Positions 3,406-34,250 of a stretch of DNA of 39,087 nucleotides are shown here, piece after piece; within the stretch, counting starts at the first letter, position 1, and each line of letters begins with the position of its first letter. The DNA comes from Pleurocapsa sp. CCALA 161 (GTDB lineage Bacteria > Cyanobacteriota > Cyanobacteriia > Cyanobacteriales > Xenococcaceae). A program made the translations under genes and the position numbers. The stretch is taken from assembly GCF_003003995.1 (NCBI RefSeq), contig NZ_PVWF01000048.1:1-39087 (forward strand). Reading direction: 5' to 3'. The notes beneath the pieces were generated by a model. That model was given only the letters and a program-made list of their open reading frames with translations, was not told where the DNA came from and ran no database searches.

Positions 3406-3458
3406 TGTTTAATCCTCAACCTATACAGTTAGTAAATAAAATAAATAATATTTGGCTA

Positions 3459-3486
3459 GTAGGGGCGAACGGCCGTTTGCCCCTAC
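3459..3486. repeat. 28-bp palindrome between pilO and pilQ
   Basis: GTAGGGGCGAAC pairs with GTTTGCCCCTAC around a central GGCC, with one G-T wobble. It lies in the 84-bp gap between the pilO stop and the pilQ start. It could form a strong RNA hairpin, acting as a partial terminator or a processing/stability element within the operon, or may simply be a dispersed palindromic repeat. No T-run follows on the minus strand. Confidence 0.7.
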
Positions 3487-3489
3487 TTC

Positions 3490-5147: not shown

Positions 5148-5217
5148 AAAGCCATACGAATTGGAGAAAATAACTAATATATTTACTGGCTATATTACAG
5201 TTCCCTGAGCTACTACT

Positions 5218-5235
5218 AAAGGTAATATTACCTTT
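5218..5235. promoter_or_regulatory. 18-bp perfect palindrome in the pilM-pilN gap
   Basis: AAAGGTAATATTACCTTT is a perfect inverted repeat lying just after the pilM stop and about 70 nt before pilN. It could be a weak hairpin or a dimeric-regulator site for an internal promoter. No function can be assigned from sequence. Confidence 0.5.
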
Positions 5236-5241
5236 GGTTTA

Positions 5242-17784: not shown

Positions 17785-18984
17785 CTAATTTTGCAGAGCA
17801 ATTACGCTTTGATAAAGATGTTCGTATTGAGCGACTATTGAGGCTAAAGAGAACTTATCGATAATTCTACGGCGAGCAAGTTTACCTAAATCTGCTTTGG
17901 CAGATGTATCCATCTTAATTACTTCCTGCCAAGCTTGAGCAAGAGCAGTAGGATTTTTTGGAGGTACAACTTTACCCGTGTCACCGACAATCCAAGCAGA
18001 ATCACCAATGTCTGTAACTACACAGGGTACTTCACAAGACATTGCTTCACCAAGTACTAAAGGAAAAGCTTCTCCATAAGCTGATGAAGAAGTTAATATG
18101 TCCAAAGCAGGTGTGATTTGAGGAATATCACTACGTTGTCCTAAAAGATATACGTTCTTACCAATGCCTAATGAGTCGATCAAGCTGGTTAAAGCTTGGT
18201 TTTCATAATCAACGTTTGTTCCGACCATCACAAATTTAGTTTCAGGATGTTCTGCCAAAATTAGGTGAGCCGCACGCAGAAAGTTATCATGATCTTTCAT
18301 CGCATGATATCGAGCAACAGAGCCAATCAGAAAAATGTGATCGGCAATATCTAATTCTTGACGAAATTTTTGCCTAATCTCAGCTGAAGGTTTATATTCA
18401 GAGGTATCAAAACCATTAGGAATGACGCAGCTGTTAGCTTTGGGATAACCAACTTGTTGATGTTGAGCTTGGCTTTTTTCCGAAACAAAAGCAACTTTAT
18501 CCACATATTTAGAAGACCAAGCACCAAAACGAATTATTGCTTGGGTGAGTAGTTTTTCCGAAGCTATGGCATGGAGAGAATGATGAATACTCCATAGTAC
18601 AGGCGTTTTTCCCTTGATGAAAAAATTGAAAAATTGCGCAGCTAAATTAGCATGATACATCCAACCCTGAATCAAGTCTGGCTTAACTTGTTTAATTAAT
18701 TCAGTCATACGTCGAATTGAGCTTATTGTCGGTTTTCCCGCTAACATTTCTACACAGTACACAGGAATTTCCAGCTGCTCAATTTTTTCTCCATATATTC
18801 CCTTATCCATTAAGGAAATCACTGTTGGTTCAAAGCGATCGCGATTGATACTGGATAATAGACTAAGAAGCATCACCTGTGCTCCCCCAGATGTCAAACT
18901 AGTAATAATAAATAATATTTTAAGTTTGCTAATTTTTTGCTCTACAGCATTGTCAATTGCTGTTTGATTTGAATCTACTTTCAT
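17785..18984 (-). CDS. GT4-family glycosyltransferase
   Basis: A 399-residue GT-B enzyme. It shows LFIITSLTSGGAQVMLLSL (nucleotide-sugar acceptor-side glycine loop), ADHIFLIGSVARYHAMKDHDNFL, and the C-terminal AYGEAFPLVLGEAMSCEVP (E-x7-E) followed by VVTDIGDSAWIVGDTGKVV. ATG at 18984 is chosen over an upstream TTG at 19023, because the extra residues are hydrophobic and not typical. It follows the first DUF4091 gene and is convergent with galE. Substrate unknown. Confidence 0.92.
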   Translation of the reverse strand: MKVDSNQTAIDNAVEQKISKLKILFIITSLTSGGAQVMLLSLLSSINRDRFEPTVISLMDKGIYGEKIEQLEIPVYCVEMLAGKPTISSIRRMTELIKQVKPDLIQGWMYHANLAAQFFNFFIKGKTPVLWSIHHSLHAIASEKLLTQAIIRFGAWSSKYVDKVAFVSEKSQAQHQQVGYPKANSCVIPNGFDTSEYKPSAEIRQKFRQELDIADHIFLIGSVARYHAMKDHDNFLRAAHLILAEHPETKFVMVGTNVDYENQALTSLIDSLGIGKNVYLLGQRSDIPQITPALDILTSSSAYGEAFPLVLGEAMSCEVPCVVTDIGDSAWIVGDTGKVVPPKNPTALAQAWQEVIKMDTSAKADLGKLARRRIIDKFSLASIVAQYEHLYQSVIALQN

Positions 18985-19071
18985 ATAGTTAATTACTCTC
19001 AAAATTATTTTAAAAATAAACAAAAAAAGTTTGTTTTATAATTCTGATTTTAATATCTTAGATGCTCACAT

Positions 19072-20664
19072 TCACTGAGAGAGTTGATGAATTTTTGCAC
19101 CTAATTTTAACCGAACAGAATTTAAAACTGCTGGGTCTTGATTCCAATTATGCATATCTTTAGCTACCTCGTTTACAGCTTTCATTGCCCACTCTTGATA
19201 ACCTGCTCTTTTTAAAATCTCAATGTATTCATAGTCTTCCACTCCTTCTCTAATCCATTTAAGCCTCATTGAAGGAACAGATCCACTAATACCAACCTGT
19301 TTACCTGGATAAATGAGCATTCCCTCCCCTGGATAATGTGTTGGCTTCTCCGAATAAACATCTATAAAATCTACATTGTTCCAAGGATCGTCTGTCCAAG
19401 TATCGACTCGTGAATAAAGCAATCCTGTTAAACCCAAACTTTGATTAATAAAACCTTGGGCTATTCTATAGTTGATTGGTTCAAAGTTAATTAGCCAAAT
19501 AGGTGAGTTATCCTGTGGAGCAAAAAAAGTATAAAACCAGACTTCTTTTCCCAGTCTCAATACTTCATTTATTTTCTCTCCTGCTGCATTATATCGTTCA
19601 GGATTTACGGCCCAGATATCTACTTGCTCATAGAATTCTGGCACAGGAGCCATTACAGCTAAATGTTTGATCCCTGCTTGATGTATATTTGTTGACCATT
19701 CTTGGAACGGTTTTTTTAAGTCCTGGCAATTATCAATTTCATCTGTAGCATAAGTGTAAATCATCAGATCTAATTGATGTTTAAGACCCTCTTGACGAAT
19801 TGTAGAAGCTGGTGGAGGAGAATCCATCGAACAAGTTTGGTAATTAGCTCCACTCCAAAAAGGAAGACGAACAGAAGTTAATCCCCATCGATCAATCAAC
19901 TCCCTTTCATCTTCTGGATTAATCGCAGCTACTGGCATAACTCGATGCTTGAGTAGTTCGATCAAGGTATTTTTATCATGCTGTTCCCATGACAGAAATG
20001 CCGATTGTAAAAATGGTTTTAACGGTAGCTCAAAATCCCAAACTGTCAGCAGAATCTTACCAGTTATTTTTCCGCGATCGCTAATAACAGTATATGTTCC
20101 TTGATAATCACTAGCTGGAGTATCTCTCGGAACAAAAATATCTACCCAAATAGTTTGATTAGTTCCTTGTTTAAGCTGAAGGGGAATTGCATCTAATTCG
20201 GCATTAGCTAAATCAGCACCTGTCTGTGGATCGACAAACGGAATTAAACCGTCAGGATACCAACCTTTACCCGAGGATTTAACTTTATTTGTGATCGATA
20301 AAGGGCTAAGTTTGGTCACATTGACATAATGCTCACGGTAAAGAGTAATATTGTCTTGGGCAATTAAACGATTTTCCTTCCCATTTAAGTCTGACACTTG
20401 AACATCAGTAACCACAGCATCATGTTGATTGGCGTTGATGGCAATCTGGAAAGATTCATACTCTCCACGAGCTGCATATAAATGGATATCGCGGACATTT
20501 TCAGCAGGATCGTGGAGCATTACTCGTTCCATGCTACTTTTTACCCATACCTGAGGAGAAACAGAAGATGAGTTTGAGTATTCAGTTTTCAGAAAAATCA
20601 ACAACATGGTTAAACCAAAAGGAATTAATAATCCGAAAAAATATTTTAAAATCGATTTAAACAC
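19072..20664 (-). CDS. DUF4091 / GH123-like secreted or membrane-anchored protein A
   Basis: A 530-residue protein with an N-terminal signal-anchor (about 8-26, YFFGLLIPFGLTMLLIFL), an N-terminal beta-domain (about 37-215, ARGEYESFQIAINA, TLYREHYV, PFVDPQTG, IWVDIFVPRD), a TIM-barrel-like middle and a C-terminal DUF4091 segment (RLKWIREGVEDYEYIEILKRAG, about 467-488). A tandem Asp308-Glu309 (YATDEIDN) sits where GH123 beta-N-acetylgalactosaminidases carry their catalytic Asp-Glu pair, so hydrolase activity is plausible but not shown. GTG start; no earlier Met. It is paired with the Wzy-like gene just upstream and is a clear paralogue of 22551-24167. Confidence 0.82.
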   Translation of the reverse strand: MFKSILKYFFGLLIPFGLTMLLIFLKTEYSNSSSVSPQVWVKSSMERVMLHDPAENVRDIHLYAARGEYESFQIAINANQHDAVVTDVQVSDLNGKENRLIAQDNITLYREHYVNVTKLSPLSITNKVKSSGKGWYPDGLIPFVDPQTGADLANAELDAIPLQLKQGTNQTIWVDIFVPRDTPASDYQGTYTVISDRGKITGKILLTVWDFELPLKPFLQSAFLSWEQHDKNTLIELLKHRVMPVAAINPEDERELIDRWGLTSVRLPFWSGANYQTCSMDSPPPASTIRQEGLKHQLDLMIYTYATDEIDNCQDLKKPFQEWSTNIHQAGIKHLAVMAPVPEFYEQVDIWAVNPERYNAAGEKINEVLRLGKEVWFYTFFAPQDNSPIWLINFEPINYRIAQGFINQSLGLTGLLYSRVDTWTDDPWNNVDFIDVYSEKPTHYPGEGMLIYPGKQVGISGSVPSMRLKWIREGVEDYEYIEILKRAGYQEWAMKAVNEVAKDMHNWNQDPAVLNSVRLKLGAKIHQLSQ

Positions 20665-20881
20665 TTGCTACCACAATGATTTTGTCTAAATGTTAAAGTG
20701 TTGAAGTAAAAAAAATTGGTTTGATTTTAGACATTGTTACTAAGTGTAGTATAAATTTGCATTTAACGCGTTTGATCTCAACAGATTAATACATCATGGC
20801 TTTAAGTATTCACTGGTGCAAGCTTGGTCTATCCTAGCAAAATATAAATCAACAATTAATAAAAGTAATAAAAGTGAAAAG

Positions 20882-22144
20882 TTATCTAACATTTTCAACT
20901 TCTTTTTCAACTTCAGCAATTTGACTTTGGGAATTAATTTGGCAACTTAATTGACCCTCTGCTAATCCCAACATCAGCGCAAAAATAATTATTTCTTTGG
21001 GTGGAAAGATAGTATAGTCCATTGCCTGAGCTAAGGTAAAAAAGGCAAAGATAAAAAATGCGGGAGAGCAATTGCGCTGGAAAGCCTGCCAGATTTTGCT
21101 AATCAAATAGAAAAATATCACAAAAGCAAAAATTCCCAGGCTCAAAATATACTCAATCACTATACTGTGATAATGAGGGGGGACACTGTAACCAACACCA
21201 TCAGAACTAGGAAATTTGAGGTTGCTTTCCCGAATTAGTGAAGGTGACATATCAAAGCCAACGCCAGTCAGAGGAATCTGCCCACCTTTTAACAGTTCTA
21301 TAGCATTAGTCCAAATATCAGTTCTACCGTTTAAATGGGAAACTTCCTCGGTACTGAAGCGTGATTTCAATACCACTTGAGTTTCTTGACCGCCATACTT
21401 CTGTAAAGCCGTGATTCCCACTATGGTTAAAAGCACAAAAATAACCACGTATTTGATTAAGTTTAAAGGAATTAATCGCCGATTTTGAACGACAATGAGA
21501 ATTAAAAACAAGAGCAAGGAAGTCCTTGAAAAACTTAGAAAAAGAAAGATGAAACTAAAAAACAAAGCTAGATAGTACTTTCTTGTATAGAAAACTAAAC
21601 ACATAATTCCTGAAACTTGACCAAAGCTAGCAGGGGTCATTGCCGAAGCAGCCATCCTATTCTGAACAGCGCCAAATTGGAGGCTATACCACAAAATTGC
21701 ACTAGCAGCTACAATAGCATAAACAAATATCAAGATACTTTCAGCAGTTTGGTAACCTAATTTACGAACAAATGCTTTTGCAAATACAAAAACTAAAAGA
21801 AACCGAAAAAAGCATACTAGTCCAGCTAGAATAAACATCCGATCTTCTTGATATGAGCTGATCCAGCTTGTGGAAATTATAAATAAACCAATTATTCCAA
21901 ACAAAAAATCTTTTAGTTCTAGTTTTAGGCCGCCAGTTGCAAAACTAAAAATAATTGCATATCCTAATACGAAATCATACCAACCCATATAGGCAGGATG
22001 ATAAACCCCGTTGAATTCGTGGACACCTCCTGGAATAATGGTTGTACTTTTTAGCCCCATATAAATTATGAGGGAAATTATTGGCAATGGGGCAACTTTC
22101 AAGCATTTTTGGAAGTCTTGAAAAATTATTTTAAATTGGTTCAA
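20882..22144 (-). CDS. Wzy/O-antigen-ligase-like polysaccharide polymerase A
   Basis: A 420-residue integral membrane protein with about ten hydrophobic segments. It carries the marks of the O-antigen ligase/polymerase superfamily: FLSFSRTSLLLFLI, then a large periplasmic loop with SHLNGRTDIWTNAIELLKGG and PLTGVGFD, HYHSIVIEYILSLGIFAFVI. Such proteins join lipid-linked repeat units (Wzy) or move glycans to lipid A or protein (WaaL/PglL). The start is TTG at 22144, backed by GGAGG four bases upstream. A DUF4091 gene follows 217 nt downstream. Confidence 0.88.
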   Translation of the reverse strand: MNQFKIIFQDFQKCLKVAPLPIISLIIYMGLKSTTIIPGGVHEFNGVYHPAYMGWYDFVLGYAIIFSFATGGLKLELKDFLFGIIGLFIISTSWISSYQEDRMFILAGLVCFFRFLLVFVFAKAFVRKLGYQTAESILIFVYAIVAASAILWYSLQFGAVQNRMAASAMTPASFGQVSGIMCLVFYTRKYYLALFFSFIFLFLSFSRTSLLLFLILIVVQNRRLIPLNLIKYVVIFVLLTIVGITALQKYGGQETQVVLKSRFSTEEVSHLNGRTDIWTNAIELLKGGQIPLTGVGFDMSPSLIRESNLKFPSSDGVGYSVPPHYHSIVIEYILSLGIFAFVIFFYLISKIWQAFQRNCSPAFFIFAFFTLAQAMDYTIFPPKEIIIFALMLGLAEGQLSCQINSQSQIAEVEKEVENVR

Positions 22145-22550
22145 AGTACCTCCACATTGGACAATACCGACAAATTTAAGCTATGGCCTCTCAAAACTCA
22201 TCTAACATTAATGAATCTTCAAGATAAATAGCTCAAACCCCGCCTATATTCAAAACAGAAGTTTGAATGAAAACTTGCATAGGTTAAATCTCAACTCGTT
22301 ACTCGCTACTTAAAACAATAGAGTTCTTGCGAAAGTGTCTGGTTTTAATATTATCCACAGATAAACACAGATAAAGCGAAACAGTTCGTTGCGGAGGGAA
22401 CCTCCGTTAAAGAAACTGTTTCAAGAACACAGATAAAATTCATCATGAATTTACTTTTGCAAGAGATCTAATTAACTGAAAAACTACAGATTTACAACTA
22501 GATAAGGTTTATGTGCCTCTAACCTAAATAAAAGAACGCTCTTTTTTCCT
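22145..22550. other. Intergenic region between the two Wzy/DUF4091 modules
   Basis: 406 bp without a credible ORF. It holds a palindromic insert flanked by 12-bp direct repeats (22364-22437) and an adjacent TTATCCACA (22351-22359) that matches a DnaA box but stands alone. It may contain the promoter for the downstream Wzy A module. The preceding region is otherwise featureless AT-rich DNA. Confidence 0.5.
22364..22437. repeat. Palindromic insert flanked by 12-bp direct repeats
   Basis: AACACAGATAAA occurs at 22364-22375 and again at 22426-22437. Between them is a 50-bp segment folding as GAAACAGTT (22378-22386) with AACTGTTTC (22414-22422), plus an inner CGGAGG/CCTCCG stem around GAA. This is the shape of a small palindromic repeat inserted with duplication of the target, or an imperfect repeat block in which the flanks were already repeated. 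Confidence 0.65.
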
Positions 22551-24167
22551 TTAGCCTTTTCCCTGTTCTCTTTTGTAGGAAACTTGATGAATTTTTTCGC
22601 CTAATTTTTGTCTAGCATAATCTAATGTATTAATATCTTTTGTCCAATCTTGCCAGTTTTTTCCCACATTTTGAACAATTGTCATTGCCCAATTTTGATA
22701 TCCAAGCTTTTTTAAGATCTCTATGTATTCATAATCTTCCATTCCTTCTCTAAGTCTTTTAAGCCTGATCGAAGGAACAACCTGATTTAGACCTACTTTG
22801 TCTCCTGGATAGAAAAACATCTCTATGCCAGGATAATCTGTATCTCCCTGCACATAAATCGGTACTTCTGACCAAGGATTTTCTGTCCAAGTATCTGCTC
22901 GTGCGATTAGAACACCTTTCAAATCTAAACTTTGAGCAATCCATCCTTGGGCAATCCGAAAATTAATCGGTGAGGAATCAAGATGCCAGAGGGGAGAATA
23001 ATCGGTACTATACCCTGTATAAAACCAAATATCATCTCCTTGGCTCTTTACCTCGCTAATTTCGGATCTTGCTTCTGCATACATCAAAGGATTTACGACC
23101 CAAATATCTACATCGCCATATAAATTTGGTTTAGGCTTCATCACGGCAAGATGTTTTAGTCCCGCTTGATGAATATTTTGTCCCCATTGTTTTACAGGTT
23201 CTGCCAAATTTTGACACTGATCGATTTCATCTACCGAAAATACATATTTTAATAAGTCGGATGGATATTGAGCAGCAGCTTGTTTTAGTTCGGTTACTGA
23301 AGGAGCAGGATTCATCTTGCAGGTTTGATAGTTAGCTCCACTCCAAAAAGGCAAACGAACCGATTTAACCCCCAGTCTGGCAAATGCTGCTTGCTGATCT
23401 GGATACTTAATTCTCTGGCTAGACATTAATCTGTGTTTGAGAAGTAATGTCTGGGCTTCAATTCCTCTATTTTCCCAAATATCAAAGAAAGAATCCATTG
23501 ATGGCTGAACAGGTAAAGTAAAATTCCAGACTGTTAAATCGATTTTACCTTCGGCAACACCGCGATCGCTTTCAATGGTAAACTTGCCTTGATATTCCCC
23601 AGCAGCAGTAGATTGAGGCACGAAGATATCTACCCAAATAGGCTGATTTGCTCCTGCTGCTAAGTCAAAAGGCACAGCATCCAATTCTGCATTTTGAATA
23701 TCTTTGCCTGTATCTGGATCAACAAAAGGAATTAGCGCATCTGCATACCATCCCTTACCTCGAGTTGGATTAGCCGCCCATCCAGGATGACTTGGGCGAT
23801 CGAGTTTAATATAGTGTTCGCGATATAAAGTAATATTACTTTTATCAATCGCTGAACCATTAGAATTTTGTAGATTGGACACAGTAACGTTGATGTTGCG
23901 AAGATTTCCTGGTGGGGCTTGAACCACAATTTGGAAAGCTTCGTATTCTCCTTTAGCTGCACTTAATTTTACCTTCCTTAGTTGCTCAAAATCATCTATA
24001 ACTGGAGCAGGTTGATGAATTTGGATGGCTTCCATGGCTGAAGCTATCCAAAACAGAGGTTTAGTTTCGACCTGACTTTCGCTAATTGTAGATGTACTAA
24101 ATACGGCAATCATGGTTAAAATTGCCCAAATAATAGCTGTAATAGTTTTGTTAAGGAAACTAATCAT
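22551..24167 (-). CDS. DUF4091 / GH123-like secreted or membrane-anchored protein B
   Basis: A 538-residue paralogue of the protein at 19072-20664, with the same order: N-terminal hydrophobic segment (ITAIIWAILTMIAVF), AAKGEYEAFQIVVQ, TLYREHYIKLDR, PFVDPDTG, PIWVDIFVPQS, VRLPFWSGANYQTCKM, and the C-terminal RLKRLREGMEDYEYIEILKKLG of DUF4091. The tandem Asp-Glu is kept (FSVDEIDQ, Asp313-Glu314). ATG at 24167 is preferred to a TTG at 24188, which would only add a non-conserved lead and almost abut the preceding stop. The 20-odd nucleotide spacing to the preceding Wzy-like gene points to co-expression. Substrate unknown; a role in trimming or binding the secreted glycan is inferred from context. 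Confidence 0.82.
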   Translation of the reverse strand: MISFLNKTITAIIWAILTMIAVFSTSTISESQVETKPLFWIASAMEAIQIHQPAPVIDDFEQLRKVKLSAAKGEYEAFQIVVQAPPGNLRNINVTVSNLQNSNGSAIDKSNITLYREHYIKLDRPSHPGWAANPTRGKGWYADALIPFVDPDTGKDIQNAELDAVPFDLAAGANQPIWVDIFVPQSTAAGEYQGKFTIESDRGVAEGKIDLTVWNFTLPVQPSMDSFFDIWENRGIEAQTLLLKHRLMSSQRIKYPDQQAAFARLGVKSVRLPFWSGANYQTCKMNPAPSVTELKQAAAQYPSDLLKYVFSVDEIDQCQNLAEPVKQWGQNIHQAGLKHLAVMKPKPNLYGDVDIWVVNPLMYAEARSEISEVKSQGDDIWFYTGYSTDYSPLWHLDSSPINFRIAQGWIAQSLDLKGVLIARADTWTENPWSEVPIYVQGDTDYPGIEMFFYPGDKVGLNQVVPSIRLKRLREGMEDYEYIEILKKLGYQNWAMTIVQNVGKNWQDWTKDINTLDYARQKLGEKIHQVSYKREQGKG

Positions 24168-24189
24168 AGTAAAATAGCGCCAATTCAAT

Positions 24190-25491
24190 TTATGTTTCTA
24201 AATCATGGAAGTATAGTTTATCTAAAAATTCATCCGTCTCTATGTTTTGTGCTTTGCTTACACTGCTATGTTTAGCTAAGTTTGCCATCATGGCATAAAA
24301 GATTAATGAGCAAAATTCATTCATCAGGGTATGACTAAAAAATCCCTGCAGTGAGAGAAAAATAACAAAAGCTGCTCCTTGGTTTTTCAATTCTCCTTCT
24401 GCTTGCCAAATAGATACCAAAAGTAGGGAAGGAAAGAATAAAACTCCCAAAAAGCCAAATTCTACCATTTGATCTAAATAAGTATTGTGACATCTTTGTG
24501 CTACTCCTGTGCTAGAAAGGGTAGCGACATTTTCTCCTGAACCCAAGCCGTTACCAATAAAAGGATGTCTGACAAATTTTCCCCAAGCGACTTTTACATG
24601 CTCTTCACGAGCGGCTTTAGAATTGTCTTTTTGCGCTAAAGGGTTGATCAAAAATTCCACTCTAGCAAGAGAATCCTTGTTTAATAAAGGCTTTCCATGA
24701 AGGTCTTTTAAGTATTTTAAATGACCAATTTGGGTCGACAAAATAGAAATCATCACCATAAAAAATACTACTAACAGTGGCATTTGGTAGCGAGGAACGA
24801 TTTTCTTAACTATTAAAAAAACCATAACTAAAACCCAACCAGCAATAGACCCTCGGGAAAAAGTTGGCGCAATGCCGACAAATATTAATAGAGCATAAAA
24901 TAAACGGTATTTGGGTTTAATAATATCGATAGTGAGAATCATTCCCACAACTAAAGCAATGCTAGCTGCGTTTGAATCTTCATAGAATCCTGCGGATCTT
25001 CCAGGAGCGCGCTGTTCTAAATAGAAAGCTGAAGGATTTAAAAACTCATAAATAAACATACCCACATTAATAAAGGTTACAGACATAATTGTCAGCTTAA
25101 CCCACTTTGTTACTAAAGGATGATAGGCAAAAATTCCTAACATTAAAAGTAGAAAGATTATGGTGCGATATTGATTTTCTAAATATTGCTGATTGGGAGA
25201 TATTGGTTGTACCAATATTGAAATAAAGGACACGGCAATATAAATACCAGACCAAATCAATAGAGGTTTTGAGAAATTGTCTAGCCGATACAGCAATGAC
25301 AAAAATAAAGGGAAAGATGCTAGCAAAAAACCCAACATCCAATATAAGGGAATAATAAACCCGTGATTATTAGCCAAATAGATATCTAGCCTGGTAAAAA
25401 ATACTAAGATAGCTGTGACTGCTAAAAATCCTTGATAATAAGTTATAAAAGTAACTTTTGTCGAATTTTTAGACTCAATTAAACTTATCAT
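24190..25491 (-). CDS. Wzy/O-antigen-ligase-like polysaccharide polymerase B
   Basis: A 433-residue membrane protein with about ten to eleven hydrophobic segments. Superfamily marks are IAPTFSRGSIAGWVLVMVF, the periplasmic loop EEHVKVAWGKFVRHPFIGNGLGSGE and CHNTYLDQMVEFGFLGVLFFP, with the conserved histidine of the ligase loop. It is diverged from the other Wzy-like protein of the locus but plays the same positional role, just upstream of a DUF4091 gene. Whether it polymerises or ligates cannot be told. Confidence 0.88.
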   Translation of the reverse strand: MISLIESKNSTKVTFITYYQGFLAVTAILVFFTRLDIYLANNHGFIIPLYWMLGFLLASFPLFLSLLYRLDNFSKPLLIWSGIYIAVSFISILVQPISPNQQYLENQYRTIIFLLLMLGIFAYHPLVTKWVKLTIMSVTFINVGMFIYEFLNPSAFYLEQRAPGRSAGFYEDSNAASIALVVGMILTIDIIKPKYRLFYALLIFVGIAPTFSRGSIAGWVLVMVFLIVKKIVPRYQMPLLVVFFMVMISILSTQIGHLKYLKDLHGKPLLNKDSLARVEFLINPLAQKDNSKAAREEHVKVAWGKFVRHPFIGNGLGSGENVATLSSTGVAQRCHNTYLDQMVEFGFLGVLFFPSLLLVSIWQAEGELKNQGAAFVIFLSLQGFFSHTLMNEFCSLIFYAMMANLAKHSSVSKAQNIETDEFLDKLYFHDLET

Positions 25492-25688
25492 TTATTCTTG
25501 ATAACTTGATTACAAATAAAAAAGTGGTTAAAATTTAAATTTTTGTAGTGTTTGAGTAATTAAACGATTTTAAAATTTAAATAGCTAGTAATTTAAGTTA
25601 TGACTAAAAATTGTTATGATTTTGAAAACCATTTATTAGTTCCTTGACTGAGCTATTACTAAACTTAATAAAAATTGTGCATTTAAAG

Positions 25689-26792
25689 TTAAAGTTCATG
25701 GAGCAAAGATAAATATGCCTTGACTACTTTTTCGGTAGAATATTCATTGGCACGCTGCATCAACAGTTTTTGTTCGGGAGGATTTTTTAAAGTTGCGAGC
25801 ATTGCTTCGCCTAAAGCTGCAGAATTCTGAATGGGAACTAAAAGACCATAAGTTCCGCGATCAAGAATTTCTTCAGGTCCACTAGGACAATCTGTTGACA
25901 CAACGGGACAACCACAAGCCATGGCTTCAATCAATACTGTGGGTAATCCCTCCTGCCTGGAAGATAAAACAAAGCAATTAGCGTGTTTCATATATACATA
26001 AGGATTTTTCACAAAGCCAGGTAATAAAACATCTTTGCCAATACCTAAATTATGTATAGTAGCCTCTAATGCTGGACGCTCTTCCCCTTCTCCTAAAATA
26101 ATCAGACGGGCTTCTTGTTGCTTGCGAACTTGAGCAAAAGCATTTAATAAATTAAGAAAGTCTTTTTGCGGGTTTAATCTACCCACCGCCAAAAAAACAG
26201 GTGGCGTGTTAACTGCGAACCAAGGGTGATCTAAACTAGCTTGGCTGTGAGTGATTAGATCTTCATTGACCACGGGATTATTAAGCACCTTAACTGTTTC
26301 ATTTTTAAGTCCTAACCGTTCCTCTAAATCTCGAGCTACACCTGCCGAAACTCCTGCAACTGCATCAGCATGAGGATATAACCATTTCATCAATAGTTCG
26401 ACTAGTTTAGCCCGCTTAAGCTTGCTTTGATTGCCCGACACGGTATTTTGCTCGACTAAAACTAATTTAGTTTTGATTCTAGACAATTTGATGGCCATTA
26501 AGGCTACCACATTGACATGACCCATGTTACCAATCAGTGCCCAAGGACGATTTTTTTTGAGATAGCTCATTAAAGGTAAAGTAGCCTTTACTGCTCGACC
26601 CATATTCAGGTCAACAATTCGTACTTCTGGAGGTACTAAATCTAAATAAGGACCTTCTTTAGTAGCTAGAACTAGATCCAGGTCAAATTCATTTCGTTGA
26701 GCCAAACCTTTGAGCAAATTAACTACGGCCTTTTCTGCACCACCGCCATGAAGGGCATCTAGAAAAAAAGTAATGCGTTTTCTTTGGGTCAT
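25689..26792 (-). CDS. GT4-family glycosyltransferase
   Basis: A 367-residue GT-B enzyme. N-terminal LDALHGGGAEKAVVNLLKGL, then FLAVGRLNPQKDFLNLLNAF and the C-terminal SSRQEGLPTVLIEAMACGCP (E-x7-E) followed by VSTDCPSGPEEIL. The PSGPxE ending is typical of GT4 enzymes that add GalNAc/GlcNAc-like sugars (PglJ/PglH group), but this is only suggestive. Its ATG is 5 nt after the preceding gene's stop, with GGAGG inside that gene's end, indicating translational coupling. Confidence 0.93.
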   Translation of the reverse strand: MTQRKRITFFLDALHGGGAEKAVVNLLKGLAQRNEFDLDLVLATKEGPYLDLVPPEVRIVDLNMGRAVKATLPLMSYLKKNRPWALIGNMGHVNVVALMAIKLSRIKTKLVLVEQNTVSGNQSKLKRAKLVELLMKWLYPHADAVAGVSAGVARDLEERLGLKNETVKVLNNPVVNEDLITHSQASLDHPWFAVNTPPVFLAVGRLNPQKDFLNLLNAFAQVRKQQEARLIILGEGEERPALEATIHNLGIGKDVLLPGFVKNPYVYMKHANCFVLSSRQEGLPTVLIEAMACGCPVVSTDCPSGPEEILDRGTYGLLVPIQNSAALGEAMLATLKNPPEQKLLMQRANEYSTEKVVKAYLSLLHEL

Positions 26793-26797
26793 TTAAC

Positions 26798-27913
26798 TTA
26801 TGCCTCCAATAATTTATTTATTAAAACTTCCCACTCTGTTACTATGGCATCTAAACCAAATCTTTCCAGTACTTCAGCGGCTTGAGCCGCCAGTTTTTGC
26901 CTTTGAGCTTCATTAGACATTAAGCTTTCCATTGCTGCGGACAAGGCTGCTACGTTTTGATTAGGAACTAAAATACCATCTCTATCTTGACGAACCATTT
27001 CACTCGGACCACTTGGACAATCAGTACAAACGACTGGTAATCCGCAGGCCAAAGCTTCTCCATGAGCCATAGGAAAACCTTCGCTTCTTGAAGCCATGAC
27101 AAACAGTTTTGCTTGTTTTAATACTGCAAAAGGATTATTTAAAGCCCCCGTAAACACAACTTGACCTGACAAGCCTAAATCGTCTCTTGTTTGCAATAAT
27201 TGTTCTCGTAACTCTCCTCTACCTAAGATGAGTAACTGCCAGTCTGGATATTTGGCGGCAATTTTAGCAAAAGCCGCTAACAAAAGATCGAATCCTTTTT
27301 GCTGTTCCAATCTACCCATACTGACTAGCCAATTTTTTTGTAGATTAACTTCTTTAGGTAGTTCATCAGTCTGTCCATCGTCTTTGACCATAATCGGATT
27401 ATAGATTACAGCTCTTTTATTTTTTGGCAGGGACGCAAAACCCAAATCAACTCCTTGACTAACGCTGACCAAGCAAGAGCAAAAAGGATAGGTCAAACGT
27501 CTTAAAGTTTCCCATAGCATCCCGTAGGAAAAGACTTTGGGATCGTTATGTTCGGTCACTATCAAAGGATACTTTGTACCCAAAAGTGCAAGTATAGCGG
27601 TAATGTTGGTGATGCGTAGGAATGAAATTACGACATCTGGAGTGCTGGACTGAACAGCCCTTCGCAGCACCCTTATACGTTTGAGATTGCTTTTAATCGC
27701 TTCAAGTGGTTCTGCCGATTGACTTAAGACTCCTAGCGCAAGACGAGAACATCCAGCGGGCAATTCATAAAATTCATAAAAATCGTCGTTTTTTCCAGAC
27801 AAGGTGACAACGGTTACTTCATGCCTACGTTGAATTAGCCCTTGTGCCATTGAGACTAAAACGCGTTCTGCGCCTCCACAACTAAGGCTAGATATCACTA
27901 AAGTTATTTTCAT
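26798..27913 (-). CDS. GT4-family glycosyltransferase
   Basis: A 371-residue GT-B enzyme related to the next one downstream: LVISSLSCGGAERVLVSMA at the N-terminus, VSMGRLEQQKGFDLLLAAF, and SRSEGFPMAHGEALACGLPV (E-x7-E) plus VCTDCPSGPSEMV. The two probably add related sugars in succession. It follows the flippase gene by 9 nt. Specificity unknown. Confidence 0.93.
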   Translation of the reverse strand: MKITLVISSLSCGGAERVLVSMAQGLIQRRHEVTVVTLSGKNDDFYEFYELPAGCSRLALGVLSQSAEPLEAIKSNLKRIRVLRRAVQSSTPDVVISFLRITNITAILALLGTKYPLIVTEHNDPKVFSYGMLWETLRRLTYPFCSCLVSVSQGVDLGFASLPKNKRAVIYNPIMVKDDGQTDELPKEVNLQKNWLVSMGRLEQQKGFDLLLAAFAKIAAKYPDWQLLILGRGELREQLLQTRDDLGLSGQVVFTGALNNPFAVLKQAKLFVMASRSEGFPMAHGEALACGLPVVCTDCPSGPSEMVRQDRDGILVPNQNVAALSAAMESLMSNEAQRQKLAAQAAEVLERFGLDAIVTEWEVLINKLLEA

Positions 27914-27922
27914 GTAGTAAAT

Positions 27923-29299
27923 TTAGCTATTTTCTAATGATATTTTTTGGAGATGTTTCTTAGTTAAAATGTACAAAAAAACAAAGGAAATTAAATACAC
28001 GCAGCTAGTTGATAATGCTATACCAGCGACGCCAATCCACTGTACAAATATATAATTACCAATGATATTTGCCACTAAATTAATCGCTGACCCCCAAGCC
28101 AAAAAGTGATTGATACTTAAAGAATTAATCAATTTAACCACAAAAATTGCTGAAATATAAAAAGGAATTTGTAATGCATAAAATACTTGAATTTGTGATA
28201 CTACTTGAGTATCTTCAGCATTGAACGATCCTCGCTCAAAAAGAAGCTGAACAATTAATTTAGAAGCTAAAATAAAAAATATGGTTAAAGGAATTGTTGT
28301 CATAAAAATTAGTCTTAAATAATAATTAAAAGTGTGACTAATCTTGCGCCAATCTCGTTTGGCAATAGTCTGGGAAAAGTAAGGAACTACTGCTGTTCCC
28401 AAAGCCAAGGTAACTAAGGTCAAAGGTAAAGCAATTACTCGGTTTGCGTAGCCTAACGCTGCGACACTTCCAGGGGATAGCATAGCCGCCATAGACTGAT
28501 CTACTAAACCAGTGCTACACATTAAGAAAGCACCAATTATTACTGGAAAATATTGTTTTATTACTAGATTTAAATTGGCATCCTGTTTTGACCACTGAGG
28601 TCGTACGCTAACTCCTTGTTGAAGTAACCCAATCCCTAAAATAATCATCTCGATCAAAGAGCCACAAATTAAGCCTCCAACTAAAGCATAAATTCCCCAA
28701 CTGGGAAAAGCGAGCAACATAGCTGCGGTCGTTAGAGGAGTTATGATAGGAGAAACCGCAGCCAGAGCGAACTTTTCTCCTGCGTTCAATACTCCACCCC
28801 AAATATTGATAATTCCAGACAGTAAAATTGAAGGGGAAAGTGACCATAAAAGACGAGTAGTCAAGTCCAGTTTTTCTGAAGAAAATCCTGATGCCAGCAG
28901 CGGTAGATAGATCGGAGCAGTAATGGCGATCGCGATCGCTGTAACGATTAGTAACCCTATTGCTCTAGTCATAATGCCAGAGAATAATTGTTGTGCTGCC
29001 TTTTGACCCTGCTGTTCCCGCACTTTAATATATGTAGGAATTAAAGCTGAGCTAAAAGAACCTGCCACGACGCTGATGACGAAAGAGGGAACGACCATTG
29101 CCATGACAAAAGAATCTAGCTCGTCTCCCGTTCCGAAACGCCAAGCAACTATTAATTCTTTGCCAACCGAAGCAAATTTGCTTAACCCAGTCAATAAACC
29201 AATAAGGATAGTTGCGGTAAAAATTTGACGATTGATTGAACCTTTAGTCCACTTTCGCCAGGAAGTGATGTTGCCCAGAATTTTCTGTATGATTTCCAT
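27923..29299 (-). CDS. MurJ/MviN-like lipid-linked oligosaccharide flippase
   Basis: A 458-residue polytopic protein of the MOP superfamily with about 12-14 membrane segments. It has the N-terminal MurJ-type GLLTGLSKFASVGKELIVAWRFG, DSFVMAMVVPSFV, ALIPTYIKVREQQGQ, and ALGYANRVIALPLTLVTLALGTAVVPYFSQ, all typical of MviN/MurJ. Within this locus it most likely plays the Wzx role of flipping the undecaprenyl-linked repeat, and is unlikely to be the housekeeping MurJ. ATG at 29299 is preferred; an upstream start at 29395 would overlap the neighbouring GT gene by 55 nt and adds a non-conserved lead. Confidence 0.87.
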   Translation of the reverse strand: MEIIQKILGNITSWRKWTKGSINRQIFTATILIGLLTGLSKFASVGKELIVAWRFGTGDELDSFVMAMVVPSFVISVVAGSFSSALIPTYIKVREQQGQKAAQQLFSGIMTRAIGLLIVTAIAIAITAPIYLPLLASGFSSEKLDLTTRLLWSLSPSILLSGIINIWGGVLNAGEKFALAAVSPIITPLTTAAMLLAFPSWGIYALVGGLICGSLIEMIILGIGLLQQGVSVRPQWSKQDANLNLVIKQYFPVIIGAFLMCSTGLVDQSMAAMLSPGSVAALGYANRVIALPLTLVTLALGTAVVPYFSQTIAKRDWRKISHTFNYYLRLIFMTTIPLTIFFILASKLIVQLLFERGSFNAEDTQVVSQIQVFYALQIPFYISAIFVVKLINSLSINHFLAWGSAINLVANIIGNYIFVQWIGVAGIALSTSCVYLISFVFLYILTKKHLQKISLENS

Positions 29300-29340
29300 G
29301 TGTTTGTTATTTTTTCTTTGGGAAAGAGAATCAATAGAGT

Positions 29341-30459
29341 TTAGGTTAAAAATTGCTCCATATGTTGACGCATTCTCAGACCAGTTTTTTCCCATGTATA
29401 TCTGTTCCAGAATAATTTATGCCCACATTCGCCAAAGATTTTACATTTTTCTGGGTGGCTAATTAATTCAATAATTTTCTGAGCAAGCTGCTGCGGATTA
29501 TTTGGTTCTACCCGATATCCGTTTTGCCCTTCGATGATAAACTCAGGTATCGCACCAAGATCAGAACCAATTACAGGAAGTTTATGAGCCATCGCTTCAA
29601 GAAAGACTATTCCAAAGGGTTCTAATGTTGTAGGAAGACAGAAAATAGAAGCTTGTTGATAAAATTGTTTAACATCTTGTATTGGAACTCGACCAACAAT
29701 ATTACAGTTAGGAATGCTTAATTTAGGTTTACATCCAACAATAGTCAGAGTTGCATTAGGGTAAGTTTCTAATACTTTTTTAAATGCTTCTACTAATACT
29801 GGCCCTCCCTTTCTTTCCCATTCGACACCAACAAACAAAATATTCTGTTTTGAGAATCTATGGTCGTCAAATATTTCGTCTCGTTTTGCTTGCACGTTGG
29901 CACCGCAATAAACACACGCAATTTTTTCTGGATCACAGGAATAGCTCTCAATCAATGATTGAGATATATTTGAACTCATCGTAAAGTTAAAAGTGGCATT
30001 TTGATAAATACTTTTTTCATATTCGAGCCAAGTTTGAGAAGGCAAATTTTGGGAATCGAAGCCTGGGTATTGTAAATATGCCAGATAGGTATGGTCGGTA
30101 TAGACAAAGTGAGGAATTCCTGGTACGCTAGCATCAAAAAGAGATTGGGTTTGAAATGTGCAAATATACCTCTGGTCGGCTAGTCTTTTTCTAACTTTTT
30201 CTTTAATTTTATTAAAAGTATAGGGTAATTTAAGATAAGTTGCAGTATTGATTTGTTTCTTTTGTAACAGTATATCTACCCCAAATTCTTTAAGGCAGTA
30301 GACAAGAGACATTAGATCTTTCTTACTTAAAAGATCTGTATAAATGTCTATTATTTCAATTGGAAAATTGGCAAAATTTGTCTGTAAAATATTTATTAAT
30401 TCAGGGTTAATATAAGAAAAATCTCCATGTTTAATAAGGGCTATTTTTCGCTTATCCAT
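29341..30459 (-). CDS. GT4-family glycosyltransferase
   Basis: A 372-residue GT-B enzyme: KIALIKHGDFSYINPELI at the N-terminus, an HFVYTDHTYLAYL segment, the NILFVGVEWERKGGPVLVEAF linker, and LEPFGIVFLEAMAHKLPVIGSD (E-x7-E). The start is ATG at 30459; the TTG at 30507 would almost overlap the dehydratase-EAL gene's stop (30513) and adds an unusual leader. It is second in the minus-strand polysaccharide locus. Substrate unknown. Confidence 0.9.
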   Translation of the reverse strand: MDKRKIALIKHGDFSYINPELINILQTNFANFPIEIIDIYTDLLSKKDLMSLVYCLKEFGVDILLQKKQINTATYLKLPYTFNKIKEKVRKRLADQRYICTFQTQSLFDASVPGIPHFVYTDHTYLAYLQYPGFDSQNLPSQTWLEYEKSIYQNATFNFTMSSNISQSLIESYSCDPEKIACVYCGANVQAKRDEIFDDHRFSKQNILFVGVEWERKGGPVLVEAFKKVLETYPNATLTIVGCKPKLSIPNCNIVGRVPIQDVKQFYQQASIFCLPTTLEPFGIVFLEAMAHKLPVIGSDLGAIPEFIIEGQNGYRVEPNNPQQLAQKIIELISHPEKCKIFGECGHKLFWNRYTWEKTGLRMRQHMEQFLT

Positions 30460-30512
30460 AAGTTTATTCTTATTAATATTTTTTACGTTTGAATACTGTA
30501 CAATCAAAAAAA

Positions 30513-33419
30513 TTAGTTCAAGTTACTTTTATTGAATACAGTATGGTTGCTAGTTATCAGATTTGTGGCTTCGGCAGAGCTTAATGGCTGGGATAAGAGA
30601 TTACCTTGACCATAATCTTCTGCAATTTCTTTTACTTTATTCAACTGAGATAAGTTTTCAATACCAGTGATGGTTACACTAAAGCTCTGTTTTTTGAGTT
30701 CGAGAACGATTTTTCTCAACATATCCCAAGCTTGCCGATCTCGCTCAATTAAGCCAACTAGATAGCGATCAATTTTTACTTGTTTAAACTCTTGATAGAG
30801 CGAATTAGGTTTAACATGTCCATAAATTGAGGCAACTCTGCCAAAATTATCGAGCTGTAACCGAATTCCCAACTGTTTTAACTGAGATAAAATCGCGATC
30901 GCTGGTTGAGGATTCTCAGCAATTAAATACTCCGATATTTCCCAAGTAATCAAATGAGGTGAAATCTGATATTTATCTAAATTGAGTCTGAGATATTTGA
31001 CTAAACTTGTTTGCAACAGCTGAAGACTAGGGACATTAATGCTGACCCCTATCTTATTATCAAAATTAGGATCTTGCTGCCAACGCTTTAGCTGGGAACA
31101 GACAGCCTCGATAATCCATCTTTGCAAAGGAATAATTAAACCCGATTCTTCTGCCACAGGCATAAATTTCTGAGGAGAAATTAGCCCTAAATGGGGATGA
31201 TGCCAGCGCAATAAAGCCTCAAACTCGCGAATCACTCCTGTAGTTAAGCTCATTACTGGCTGATAGTAAAGACTAAACTCTTCGTTCTCTAAAGCCTGTT
31301 TGATTCCGCGTCGCAGTTCAATAGGTGTCAGGCGAGTTACATAGTTAAAGCTTGGTAGGCTAGAACGCGGTATGAATTCTGGCTGTAGACTAAGTGTGAC
31401 CGAATTAAGCTCATGAGTTTGGCTAATGATTTGTTCGAGACTATCTTGGGCTTGTTCAATATTTATCTGTTGATATTTGCTGGTATAGCCGACTACAAGA
31501 CGATCAAGCAAAAAGATAATTAGATTAATATCATTACGTTTTGCTGCTTGACATAAAATATTAATGGTTGTATTCAAATTGGGCGGGATAATACGACTGG
31601 CATTTTTAACTACTAATATTTTTTCATGGGCAGTAGATTCATATTCTTCTCCTTCTACTAATAGTTCTTCGTATAGTTTTTCTCCTGGTCGTAATCCAGT
31701 AAAGACAATATCAATGTCTTTACCAACCTCATAGCCAGACAAACTGATTAGATCTCGAGCTAAATCGACAATCTTAATTGGTTGACCCATATTAAGCATA
31801 AAAATTTGACCCTGGCTGTTTTGGCTACTTAAGACAGCAGCCTGAAGAACTAGCTGAACCGCCTCAGGAATAGTCATAAAGTAGCGAGTAATATCAGGGT
31901 GAGTAATGGTAACTGGTCCACCTTTAGCAATCTGTTGTTTGAAGGTCGGCACCACACTACCACGGCTACCCAAAACATTGCCAAAACGGACTACTGTGTA
32001 TGGTTTTCCACTAGTTCTAGCTGCTTTTAACACCAGCATTTCTGCCGTGCGCTTACTCGCTCCCATCACATTAGTCGGTTTAACTGCCTTGTCAGTTGAA
32101 ATCATGACAAAATTGCCGACATCGTAGGAAATTGCTAAGTCTAACAAGTTTTTAGTTCCCAAGACATTATTAGTAATTGCCTCAGGAGGATTCAACTCCA
32201 TTAATGGTACATGCTTATGAGCAGCAGCATGAAACACCACGTCAGGTTGATAAACGCTAAAAGCATCTTCTAATCTTGGTTTTATTCTTAAATCAGCAAT
32301 GTAGGGAACAAGCTGAGTCAGCTGTCGATCTGAGTCTTCCTGCTGAAGAATATGCAATACCTGTTGCAGTTCCTCTTGAATGTTAAATACAGAGTTTTCA
32401 CCATGCCCCAATAAAATCATTTTGGCGGGACGGCAGCGAAAAATCTGACGACATAGTTCACTCCCAATCGAACCCCCAGCACCAGTTATCAATACAACCT
32501 TTCCTGTTAGAAGTTGAGCAACTCCCTGGGCATCGGTTTGAATTGGCTCTCGCCGTAAGAGGTCTTCTATTTTGACTTCTCTAAGGGTAGGGATTCGATT
32601 TCCTTGGTCGAGTATTTCATTGGCTGAGGGGAGAGTATTAACTGGCACTCCAATTGCTTGACACACATCAACAATCTCGCGAATGGTTTTGCCAGCAGTG
32701 GTAGGCATAGCGATAACCACCTGTCGGATATTGTGCGCGGAAATAATTTCAGGAATACGGTAACGGTTGCCCACTACAGGTAATCCTTGGATATTTAATC
32801 CCAGCTTTTTGGGATCATCATCGACAAATGCAACTGGATTTAAGCCTAGTTTGAGATTACGGCGCATTTCTTGCATAATTGATACTCCAGCATCTCCCGC
32901 TCCTACGATTAAAACGCGATCGCGTTTGTAAAAGTTTTTGCGCTGCTGATTTTTTCGTTCTGTGGCTCGAACACTAAAGCGAACTCCGCCAATTAAGATA
33001 AAGGAGAGAATGCCATCAAGTAAGGGTAGAGAACGAGGTACTAAATAATGTTCAGTCTCAGTGCCAATTATGTACTGCAAAATACTCAACAAGATAATCT
33101 CAATTACCACAGCAGTGGTTGTCAAAGCAGCAATCTCAATTAACTCATCAATACTGGCATATTTCCAGTAGCGCTTATAAAATCCACCAATGATAAAAGT
33201 GAATAACTTGACTATAGAAAAGATAATGGTTGCAATAAACAAGCCTTTATAATATTCTTGTAGCGCTTCTATGTGATCTAGACGCAAGATCATCGCCAGT
33301 ACAGGTGTTAGACAGAAAACGAACCCATCTAGGATAAAAAAGTGTCGATTATTGAGATTAAGCAATTTTTTGTTTTTGCCAATAGTTATTCGTTCCCAAC
33401 TCAACTTTTTCAATCTCAT
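30513..33419 (-). CDS. WbpM/FlaA1-type nucleotide-sugar 4,6-dehydratase fused to a degenerate EAL domain
   Basis: A 968-residue fusion, versus roughly 600-650 for the stand-alone family. Residues 28-150: about four membrane helices. Residues 168-290: first Rossmann domain (VLIVGAGDAGVSIMQ). Residues 305-600: SDR dehydratase domain with ITGAGGSIGSELCRQ and STDKAVKPTNVMGASKR, where Met452-x3-Lys456 replaces the classic YxxxK, as in WbpM/PglF-type UDP-GlcNAc 4,6-dehydratases. Residues 610-690: linker. Residues 700-960: EAL phosphodiesterase fold with EALLRW (734-739), Asn795, Glu827, Lys882 and Gln938 present. The DDFGTG loop reads LDNFGRV (Asp857-Asn858) and the AEGVE motif reads ITGIE (Thr918 for the first Glu). 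Hydrolysis of c-di-GMP is therefore unlikely, binding is possible. ATG at 33419. First gene of the locus. Confidence 0.9.
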   Translation of the reverse strand: MRLKKLSWERITIGKNKKLLNLNNRHFFILDGFVFCLTPVLAMILRLDHIEALQEYYKGLFIATIIFSIVKLFTFIIGGFYKRYWKYASIDELIEIAALTTTAVVIEIILLSILQYIIGTETEHYLVPRSLPLLDGILSFILIGGVRFSVRATERKNQQRKNFYKRDRVLIVGAGDAGVSIMQEMRRNLKLGLNPVAFVDDDPKKLGLNIQGLPVVGNRYRIPEIISAHNIRQVVIAMPTTAGKTIREIVDVCQAIGVPVNTLPSANEILDQGNRIPTLREVKIEDLLRREPIQTDAQGVAQLLTGKVVLITGAGGSIGSELCRQIFRCRPAKMILLGHGENSVFNIQEELQQVLHILQQEDSDRQLTQLVPYIADLRIKPRLEDAFSVYQPDVVFHAAAHKHVPLMELNPPEAITNNVLGTKNLLDLAISYDVGNFVMISTDKAVKPTNVMGASKRTAEMLVLKAARTSGKPYTVVRFGNVLGSRGSVVPTFKQQIAKGGPVTITHPDITRYFMTIPEAVQLVLQAAVLSSQNSQGQIFMLNMGQPIKIVDLARDLISLSGYEVGKDIDIVFTGLRPGEKLYEELLVEGEEYESTAHEKILVVKNASRIIPPNLNTTINILCQAAKRNDINLIIFLLDRLVVGYTSKYQQINIEQAQDSLEQIISQTHELNSVTLSLQPEFIPRSSLPSFNYVTRLTPIELRRGIKQALENEEFSLYYQPVMSLTTGVIREFEALLRWHHPHLGLISPQKFMPVAEESGLIIPLQRWIIEAVCSQLKRWQQDPNFDNKIGVSINVPSLQLLQTSLVKYLRLNLDKYQISPHLITWEISEYLIAENPQPAIAILSQLKQLGIRLQLDNFGRVASIYGHVKPNSLYQEFKQVKIDRYLVGLIERDRQAWDMLRKIVLELKKQSFSVTITGIENLSQLNKVKEIAEDYGQGNLLSQPLSSAEATNLITSNHTVFNKSNLN

Positions 33420-34250
33420 TGTTAAATCCTAATTAAACTTTTCAGCGTTTTTAAAGTGAGTAAACTAAATTCTAGAATTCAATTAATATAAGTATTTACT
33501 ACGCCAAACAGAGGTTCAAAGCAAAAAGCAAGAATGATATTTAGATAACTTGTTTTAGAAAAATTTCTTATAAAACATAAGTAGATATCATCAATGAGCT
33601 TAAATAGTTAACTTATCGCTGCTAGTAAAAAAACAGATTAAGAGAAATCTTGTTATATTTATAAGCTATTATTTTATGTCACAATGGACTCTAATCTGAA
33701 GCATTTTACTTGAAATGTTTTGATCAATACTTAAATTTTAAAGGTGTCTATGGTTACAAATTAAGACAATTATAATCATAATACTTCTTAGCAATTTATA
33801 TAAGATACCTGGGGATAAATCATAGATGTGACTGCTAATTTTACTATCAATTAAAAATATTAAGGTGATTCTGGCTTAGTTTAAGTGCTGTCTGCATAGC
33901 TTTTGGGGCTTGATGTTGCAAGAATTTAAATCAATTTAATAAGGTTAAATAAACAGGTTAAATTAATATTTAAACTAAATTATGAAATGTTAGTGAACTT
34001 ACTGAGTGAATTATGAAATTTAGATGAACAAGTAAACACAAGCAAATTGTGCTGGCTTCATTAGTTTTGCGAGTTTTGATTTTACTGCGCTTTTTAAATG
34101 AATAGACTACATTAATAAAATTATCAAAAAGCTGATAGCTGACTACGTTGTCGAAGCAGGATAGCTACAACAAGCTAATTGAAAGTGAAGCCCTAAAGGA
34201 TACCGCTTCAAGAAAACGGAGTCTATTCAACTGAAAATGTCTGTAGGCTT
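33420..34250. other. 831-bp intergenic region upstream of the dehydratase-EAL gene
   Basis: An unusually long AT-rich gap with no ORF of protein-like composition. It must contain the promoter of the polysaccharide locus, and it may hold long leader or regulatory RNA. Only a repeat copy (34187-34209) near the right end is recognisable; nothing else convincing was seen. The right end also serves as the 3' end of the AarF gene. Confidence 0.55.
34187..34209. repeat. Short interspersed repeat (copy 2)
   Basis: GAAGCCCTAAAGGATACCGC and TTC, with terminal GAAGC/GCTTC complementarity, share the CCTAAAGG-ATACCGCTTC core with copy 1 in pilQ and copy 3 near pip. It lies downstream of the AarF stop. 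Confidence 0.6.

Follow-up and report, generated by a model that had tools for sequence, protein, structure and literature searches.

What does an EAL domain, the fold of cyclic dimeric guanosine monophosphate (c-di-GMP) phosphodiesterases, do at the end of an enzyme of sugar-nucleotide synthesis? This question is raised by a 39,087-nucleotide contig of Pleurocapsa sp. CCALA 161 (NZ_PVWF01000048.1; the whole stretch is referred to as the window), in which one gene (30513..33419, minus strand) encodes a 968-amino-acid (aa) protein that joins a presumably membrane-anchored dehydratase to a full-length, degenerate EAL domain. An initial annotation had suggested that this protein could tie polysaccharide precursor synthesis to c-di-GMP, and our analysis partly supports that interpretation. 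With modest confidence, slightly better than even, we favor the explanation that the EAL domain binds c-di-GMP in a one-metal state without hydrolyzing it and, as a receptor, exerts allosteric control over the precursor synthesis of a presumably membrane-anchored uridine diphosphate N-acetylglucosamine (UDP-GlcNAc) 4,6-dehydratase.

A single reading frame joins a dehydratase to an EAL domain

The fusion gene is complete, with an ATG start and a single open frame without internal stop, and the order of its parts from the N to the C terminus is membrane anchor, CoA_binding_3, dehydratase, linker, and degenerate EAL (coordinates are window positions, all on the minus strand). The presumed membrane anchor comprises hydrophobic segments within residues 26 to 122 (33054..33344), where 19-residue Kyte-Doolittle windows exceeded 1.6 at residues 26 to 50, 57 to 81, and 92 to 122, a region in which the predicted structural model is unreliable. 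Pfam matches identified a CoA_binding_3 domain (PF13727; residues 85 to 261; 32637..33167; 57.3 bits, cut-off 25), a Polysacc_synt_2 dehydratase domain (PF02719; residues 309 to 605; 31605..32495; 386.8 bits, cut-off 20.2) that covers profile positions 1 to 292 of 293, and an EAL domain (PF00563; residues 706 to 945; 30585..31304; 181.8 bits, cut-off 31.3), the latter two separated by a linker (residues about 640 to 700; 31320..31502) that is variable as judged from the ratio of nonsynonymous to synonymous substitution (dN/dS). A Pfam scan of the protein gave no GGDEF match. Open reading frame and Pfam data agree with the single 968-residue frame first described, and they confirm that the window protein is one dehydratase, with a presumed membrane anchor, carrying a full-length EAL domain.

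The closest solved relatives of the dehydratase part were five WlaL entries (5bju to 5bjy; expectation [E] values of 2e-84 to 8e-83), WlaL being the protein that we take to be PglF. The catalytic motif TDK-x7-M-x3-K lies at residues 442 to 456 (32052..32096; T442, D443, K444, M452, and K456); all five residues were present in 40/40 fused rows, and the same motif was found in 35/35 other rows (33 non-fused, 2 truncated), save for one T442S substitution. TDKxnMx3K is the signature by which WbpM and PglF are recognized; in both, Met stands in for the customary Tyr (PMC8987622). Because the window protein bears this fingerprint, with Met replacing Tyr, we assign its dehydratase to the WbpM/PglF type and not to the FlaA1 type, so that of the earlier label "WbpM/FlaA1-type" the first half is retained and the second is dropped; UDP-GlcNAc would be the substrate. 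The fusion further shares PF02719 with WbpM/PglF, and presumably a membrane-anchored N terminus, and differs from WbpM in that the available text on the latter describes anchor and dehydratase regions and does not mention a C-terminal EAL domain (PMC8987622). The Pleurocapsa genome contained 22 PF02719 matches, of which one was strong (390.5 bits) and the next best reached 69.3 bits.

The EAL domain retains the residues aligning with metal site 1 and lacks the catalytic-base Glu

We compared 40 fused EAL domains (39 from the order Cyanobacteriales and one from Pseudanabaena; two of them, L083 and L084, are identical over the EAL) with 43 rows of non-fused cyanobacterial EALs, representing 42 genes because one gene occurs twice (L001 and L071). 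This non-fused set is not a random sample, as it consists of 23 rows (22 genes) that were the top matches in the window's family and of 20 top matches from elsewhere.

For orientation at the active site we used PA3825, in which the ligands of metal 1 are Glu39, Asn98, Asp130, and Asp160; at site 2, Mg is bound by Asp161 and Asp183, whereas Ca is contacted by Asp160 and Glu217 (PMC5301497). Placed by motif and spacing, these ligands correspond to E734, N795, E827, and D857 at site 1, and to N858, D884, and T918 at site 2. The window protein carries an intact EALLRW motif (residues 734 to 739; 31203..31220), whose E734 aligns with a metal-1 ligand; N795 (31035..31037) and E827 (30939..30941) also align with metal-1 ligands, roles that derive from PA3825, in which the residue matching E827 is Asp (PMC5301497). 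At the DD of DDFGTG it has D857-N858 (30846..30851), that is, the first Asp is retained and the second, a metal-2 ligand, is gone, and T918 (30666..30668) stands where EGVE has its Glu, the catalytic base. The residues E734, N795, E827, D857, N858, and T918, as well as K882 and Q938, are as given in the initial annotation.

This pattern extends throughout the fused proteins. E734, R738, N795, E827, D857, E921, and Q938 were found in 40/40 fused EALs, K882 in 37/40, and D884 in 38/40. Not one of the 40 had Asp at position 858 (N 25, H 11, R 2, Q 1, K 1) or Glu at position 918 (T 35, A 3, S 1, V 1). Among the non-fused cyanobacterial EALs, the second DDFG Asp was present in 40 of the 42 genes and the EGVE Glu in 41 (41 and 42 of the 43 rows, respectively). 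By this placement, site 1 appears complete in the fused EALs, and at site 2 the equivalents of Asp161 and Glu217 appear lost and that of Asp183 (D884) mostly kept.

The contrast with canonical EALs was also assessed over the whole domain. Sixty-one columns were conserved in at least 22 of the 23 canonical rows. In the 39 fused proteins compared, 23 of these columns persisted in 38 or more, 33 were intermediate, and five were lost (829, 858, 861, 887, and 918). The lost columns include the metal-2 Asp (858), the base (918), and the Thr of DFGT (861). Loop 6 of active EALs takes part in dimerization and catalysis, and it reads GRVASIYGHV in the window protein versus GTGYSSLSYL in canonical relatives; among the 40 fused EALs, Thr 861 was present in none, Gly 862 in 10, Ser 864 in 25, Tyr 868 in 7, and Leu 869 in 24.

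With neither the Asp of the second metal nor the Glu that acts as catalytic base, the EAL domain is predicted to be unable to hydrolyze c-di-GMP. The initial annotation had made the same prediction for the window protein; the 40 fused proteins are consistent with it, as is the rule of a 2026 study in which an EAL was counted as inactive when the EGVE base was not conserved (PMC12900916). Complexes of c-di-GMP with metal 1 only have been reported for MorA, YkuI, and one BlrP1 chain (PMC5301497, Table 2), and we propose such a one-metal state for the fusion because its four site-1 ligands align with conserved residues. The EAL part modeled alone from four sequences reached a predicted local distance difference test (pLDDT) score of 81.9 in the best of five models (others, 53.4 to 77.2), and a Foldseek search with this model matched EAL structures at E values down to 9e-20, among them complexes with c-di-GMP such as 3n3t (query-normalized template modeling score [TMq], 0.79), 4rnh, and 5m1t.

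Known non-catalytic EAL receptors are degenerate in a different manner. LapD, like the protein proposed here, has an EAL fold that binds c-di-GMP without catalytic competence, but it carries KVL in place of EAL, with loss of the metal-1 Glu, and a degenerate GGDEF domain (PMC3032553). FimX likewise forms c-di-GMP complexes through a non-catalytic EAL fold, and it lacks DDFGTG (PMC5301497, including Table 2). In the fusion, by contrast, EALLRW and the metal-1 residues remain, the residues that have disappeared are the second-metal Asp and the base, and the Pfam scan matched no GGDEF; a loss pattern like that of LapD or FimX was found in none of the fused EALs, since the EAL-motif Glu and the first Asp were present in 40/40. 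The nearest parallel is the one-metal (M1) c-di-GMP state of YkuI, MorA, and BlrP1 chains, which is the state predicted for the fusion (PMC5301497), although none of these proteins is described as fused to a sugar-nucleotide enzyme in the sources cited here. In the non-fused EAL L143 (G131:C11; 1028-aa frame), which lies outside the fused clade, Asn and Thr likewise replace the second-metal Asp and the base; this may represent an independent loss of the same residues.

Distribution, selection, and history of the fusion

We searched 388 genomes of the order, the genome sets at order and phylum level being evenly sampled, with only matches at E ≤1e-200 reported. A strong dehydratase match was present in 79 genomes and absent from 309. 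The 79 comprised 39 intact fusions (905 to 968 aa, window's genome included), one broken copy, two truncated EALs, and 37 non-fused forms, 26 of the latter being assigned from read proteins and 11 from frame length alone. The intact fusions were spread over six numbered families of the order. A contig scan yielded five relatives. Pleurocapsa MO_192.B19, Waterburya agarophytonicola, and Xenococcus MO_188.B8 carry intact fusions, all three counted among the 39; the form in Xenococcus PCC 7305 is non-fused, and the copy in one metagenome-assembled genome is the broken one counted above. Within the window's family (27 genomes), 11 genomes had an intact fusion, one a broken copy, and two a non-fused form, and 13 gave no match to such a dehydratase at the E limit applied; the same was true of 6/13 genomes of the window's genus. 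In Pseudanabaena sp. ABRG5-3, the fused protein is encoded on plasmid ABRG53f, recorded as complete (L123, 11962-14814), and is annotated solely as "polysaccharide biosynthesis protein"; because this copy is on a plasmid, the fusion gene can sit on an extrachromosomal replicon. Among the best 20 of 410 matching records in the plasmid search (E 1e-60), one covers ≥80% of the query.

The initial annotation had raised the possibility of a sequencing frameshift joining two genes. A frameshift or chimera is ruled out by the intact fusions in other genomes, which amount to 39 further distinct intact fused proteins beside that of the window (38 from the order, one from Pseudanabaena). We also considered whether other C-terminal domains occur on this dehydratase: 14 loci with a long frame and a match to the dehydratase only resolved into 10 EAL fusions, two truncated EALs, and two proteins without EAL (G458 and G661, with reported frames of 1198 and 1169 aa and read proteins of 695 and 681 aa, respectively). 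A distant dehydratase, G370, with a reported 1210-aa frame, was rejected as a fusion, as its translation is an ordinary dehydratase without EAL. The two truncated proteins, both from family f58, look like cases of an EAL being lost: L101 (4481-6871; 796 aa) retains an EAL remnant matching profile positions 53-156 only (49.1 bits), and L102 (801 aa) resembles it.

We estimated dN/dS for 15 pairs of fused genes, of which one had dS >1 throughout and another reached 1.0; the dehydratase and the linker each gave a value in 14. The EAL ratios ranged from 0.04 to 0.45 (median, 0.15; 15 pairs), compared with a median of 0.05 for the dehydratase (14 pairs) and a range of 0.05 to 1.07 for the linker (median, 0.46; 14 pairs). 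The EAL domain of the fusion is under purifying selection. Pairwise EAL identity among the 39 fused proteins had a median of 0.46 and a minimum of 0.31.

Relative to the non-fused set, the fused EALs formed one clade (support, 100/99), which was recovered after removal of the active-site and loop-6 columns (94/97; in 94% of bootstrap trees), and convergent fusions are accordingly not favored. A single clade of fused dehydratases was rejected (approximately unbiased [AU] test, p 5e-48; quick tree), and on the dehydratase tree, which covers the retrieved loci only, the fused/non-fused label changed 8 times among 75 rows, with at least six changes on well-supported branches. Because the fused EALs are one clade and the fused dehydratases are not, the simplest reading is a single capture of the EAL followed by repeated losses, with the loss count and the placement of the Pseudanabaena row left unsure by long branches (L123, L037, and L038). 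Transfer between lineages may be an alternative element of this history; the Pseudanabaena copy is plasmid-borne.

The fusion gene heads a polysaccharide locus

In keeping with what had first been noted, the gene heads a polysaccharide locus in the window, and polysaccharide genes were also found downstream of the fusion in the five other scanned fused loci. The next gene in the window encodes a glycosyltransferase of family 4 (GT4) by Pfam (29341..30507, minus strand; its mechanically called TTG start lies 5 bases past the fusion stop). Further downstream, Pfam matches identified genes for a MurJ/MatE-type flippase, two GT4 enzymes, Wzy_C, a GH123-like protein, Wzy_C, a GH123-like protein, and GT4 (17785..29395, minus strand). 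Each of the two GH123-like proteins (19072-20664 and 22551-24188) adjoins a Wzy_C gene, forming a repeated pair within the cluster. The downstream genes in the other loci encode a Polysacc_synt flippase and sulfotransferases (L010), DUF4832/DUF4874, MurJ, and GT4 (L090), DUF4832/DUF4874 and MurJ (L091), a flippase, GT4, and Wzy (L096), or GT4 and a flippase (L011). The DUF4832/DUF4874 gene directly follows the fusion in two families of the order (L090, 4089-5540; L091, 3456-4937), and its product may belong to the same polysaccharide pathway. A Wzc-like kinase gene is divergent beside L091 and beside the Pseudanabaena copy.

Upstream, the neighbor of the fusion is an ABC1-type kinase gene, from which it is separated by an A+T-rich gap of 831 bases (33420-34250) that may hold the regulation of the cluster. 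No riboswitch was matched by Rfam in the window at the gathering threshold, and the number of promoters found around the gap was not above chance (5 versus 5.5 expected). Elsewhere in the window are the type IV pilus genes for secretin, PilN, and PilM (1057-6342). The Pleurocapsa genome encodes a c-di-GMP network, in which GGDEF was matched 21 times, EAL 15 times (in some cases only partially), and PilZ once, at 28.8 bits against a cut-off of 22.5.

Discussion

In the mechanism that we propose, c-di-GMP would bind the EAL barrel uncut, probably with one metal in site 1, and the bound nucleotide would change where the EAL domains lie or how they associate, thereby raising or lowering dehydratase activity. 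This would tie the sessility signal to an early step in making the nucleotide sugars of a Wzx/Wzy-type polysaccharide, and activation at high c-di-GMP would fit the usual link of this messenger to sessility.

Several observations weigh against this proposal. Because loop 6 is changed in the fused EALs, c-di-GMP binding might be altered as well. Retention of site 1 is only mildly unusual (4/4 versus 23/61 columns, about 0.017), as these columns are conserved across all EALs, and the loss of both catalytic residues is not unique to the fusion, being shared by the non-fused L143. The full-length fusion model (pLDDT 52.4) is too poor to use, and contact between the domains cannot be read from it. 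Nor is the gene part of the core genome or in need of its EAL, given the 37 non-fused and two truncated forms among the 79 and the absence of such a dehydratase from 13 of the 27 family genomes. Finally, the Pseudanabaena copy is followed by polyketide/peptide synthase genes on the opposite strand, and no polysaccharide genes come after it.

We also weighed other explanations for the presence of the EAL domain. It could, without binding any nucleotide, serve as an oligomerization or docking module that arranges the dehydratase with partner enzymes; loop 6, part of the dimer machinery of active EALs, is indeed altered in the fused domains, and degenerate EALs that act by protein contacts are known from BluF, which lacks phosphodiesterase activity and antagonizes a repressor (PMC3509220). 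However, the metal-1-aligned residues, the Arg of the EAL motif, and the Gln of GQG are invariant in 40/40 fused proteins, and since this invariance holds despite low EAL identity (median 0.46, minimum 0.31), an unused pocket would not be expected; we consider the docking role unlikely, although worth keeping in view. That the domain is a functionless, decaying leftover of an old fusion might be argued from its repeated loss (37 non-fused and 2 truncated, L101 and L102, of 79), but dN/dS of 0.04 to 0.45 (median, 0.15) and pocket residues invariant in 40/40 render this account improbable.

Just a shade less credible is the idea that the pocket senses another ligand, such as 5'-phosphoguanylyl-(3'-5')-guanosine (pGpG) or a nucleotide sugar, so that the dehydratase would be subject to feedback from its product. 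Mostly Asn/His and Thr now occupy the metal-2 and base positions, which would allow an altered specificity, and the domain is located in a nucleotide-sugar enzyme; yet the conserved motifs match those of EALs that bind c-di-GMP, and the predicted fold resembles the complexes of such EALs. We regard as very improbable a bifunctional enzyme in which the EAL still hydrolyzes c-di-GMP by an altered mechanism: the site-1 residues are kept and K882 is present in 37/40, but the EGVE Glu and the second Asp are both absent in 40/40. Among these possibilities, an EAL that binds c-di-GMP in the one-metal state and acts on the dehydratase is the explanation that we prefer.

Built-in c-di-GMP receptors are familiar from other polysaccharide proteins, such as BcsA-PilZ, Alg44, and PelD, which act at polymerization or export. 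To our knowledge, the c-di-GMP-controlled polysaccharide machines described so far are acted on at the synthase or export step. NfrB resembles the fusion as a glycosyltransferase of polysaccharide synthesis with its own c-di-GMP receptor (MshEN), and differs in that the controlled step is that of the synthase (PMC8669469). In the fusion, the proposed target is the synthesis of precursors, and an EAL would serve as the receptor. Some cyanobacteria, at least, are rich in degenerate turnover domains, which account for >30% per species in Arthrospira (PMC10607523). The initial annotation knew of no description of the fusion, and we likewise found no account of an EAL attached to a sugar-nucleotide dehydratase among the papers listed by full-text searches of an open-licence library with capped listings, which is weak evidence of absence.

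The broader proposition is that c-di-GMP gates the supply of nucleotide sugars, directly and by allostery, in an ancient cyanobacterial enzyme family with a distinct degenerate EAL, one that keeps site 1 and loses the base and most of site 2; for this we see the case as evenly balanced. The split of kept and lost residues provides a simple sequence test for such a distinct group of EAL receptors. If the proposition is true, the second messenger acts at the supply step of polysaccharide synthesis and not only at the synthase or exporter. With a receptor on the dehydratase, c-di-GMP would act directly on extracellular polysaccharide in these cyanobacteria, for which the single PilZ match beside 21 GGDEF matches in the window's genome is the context.

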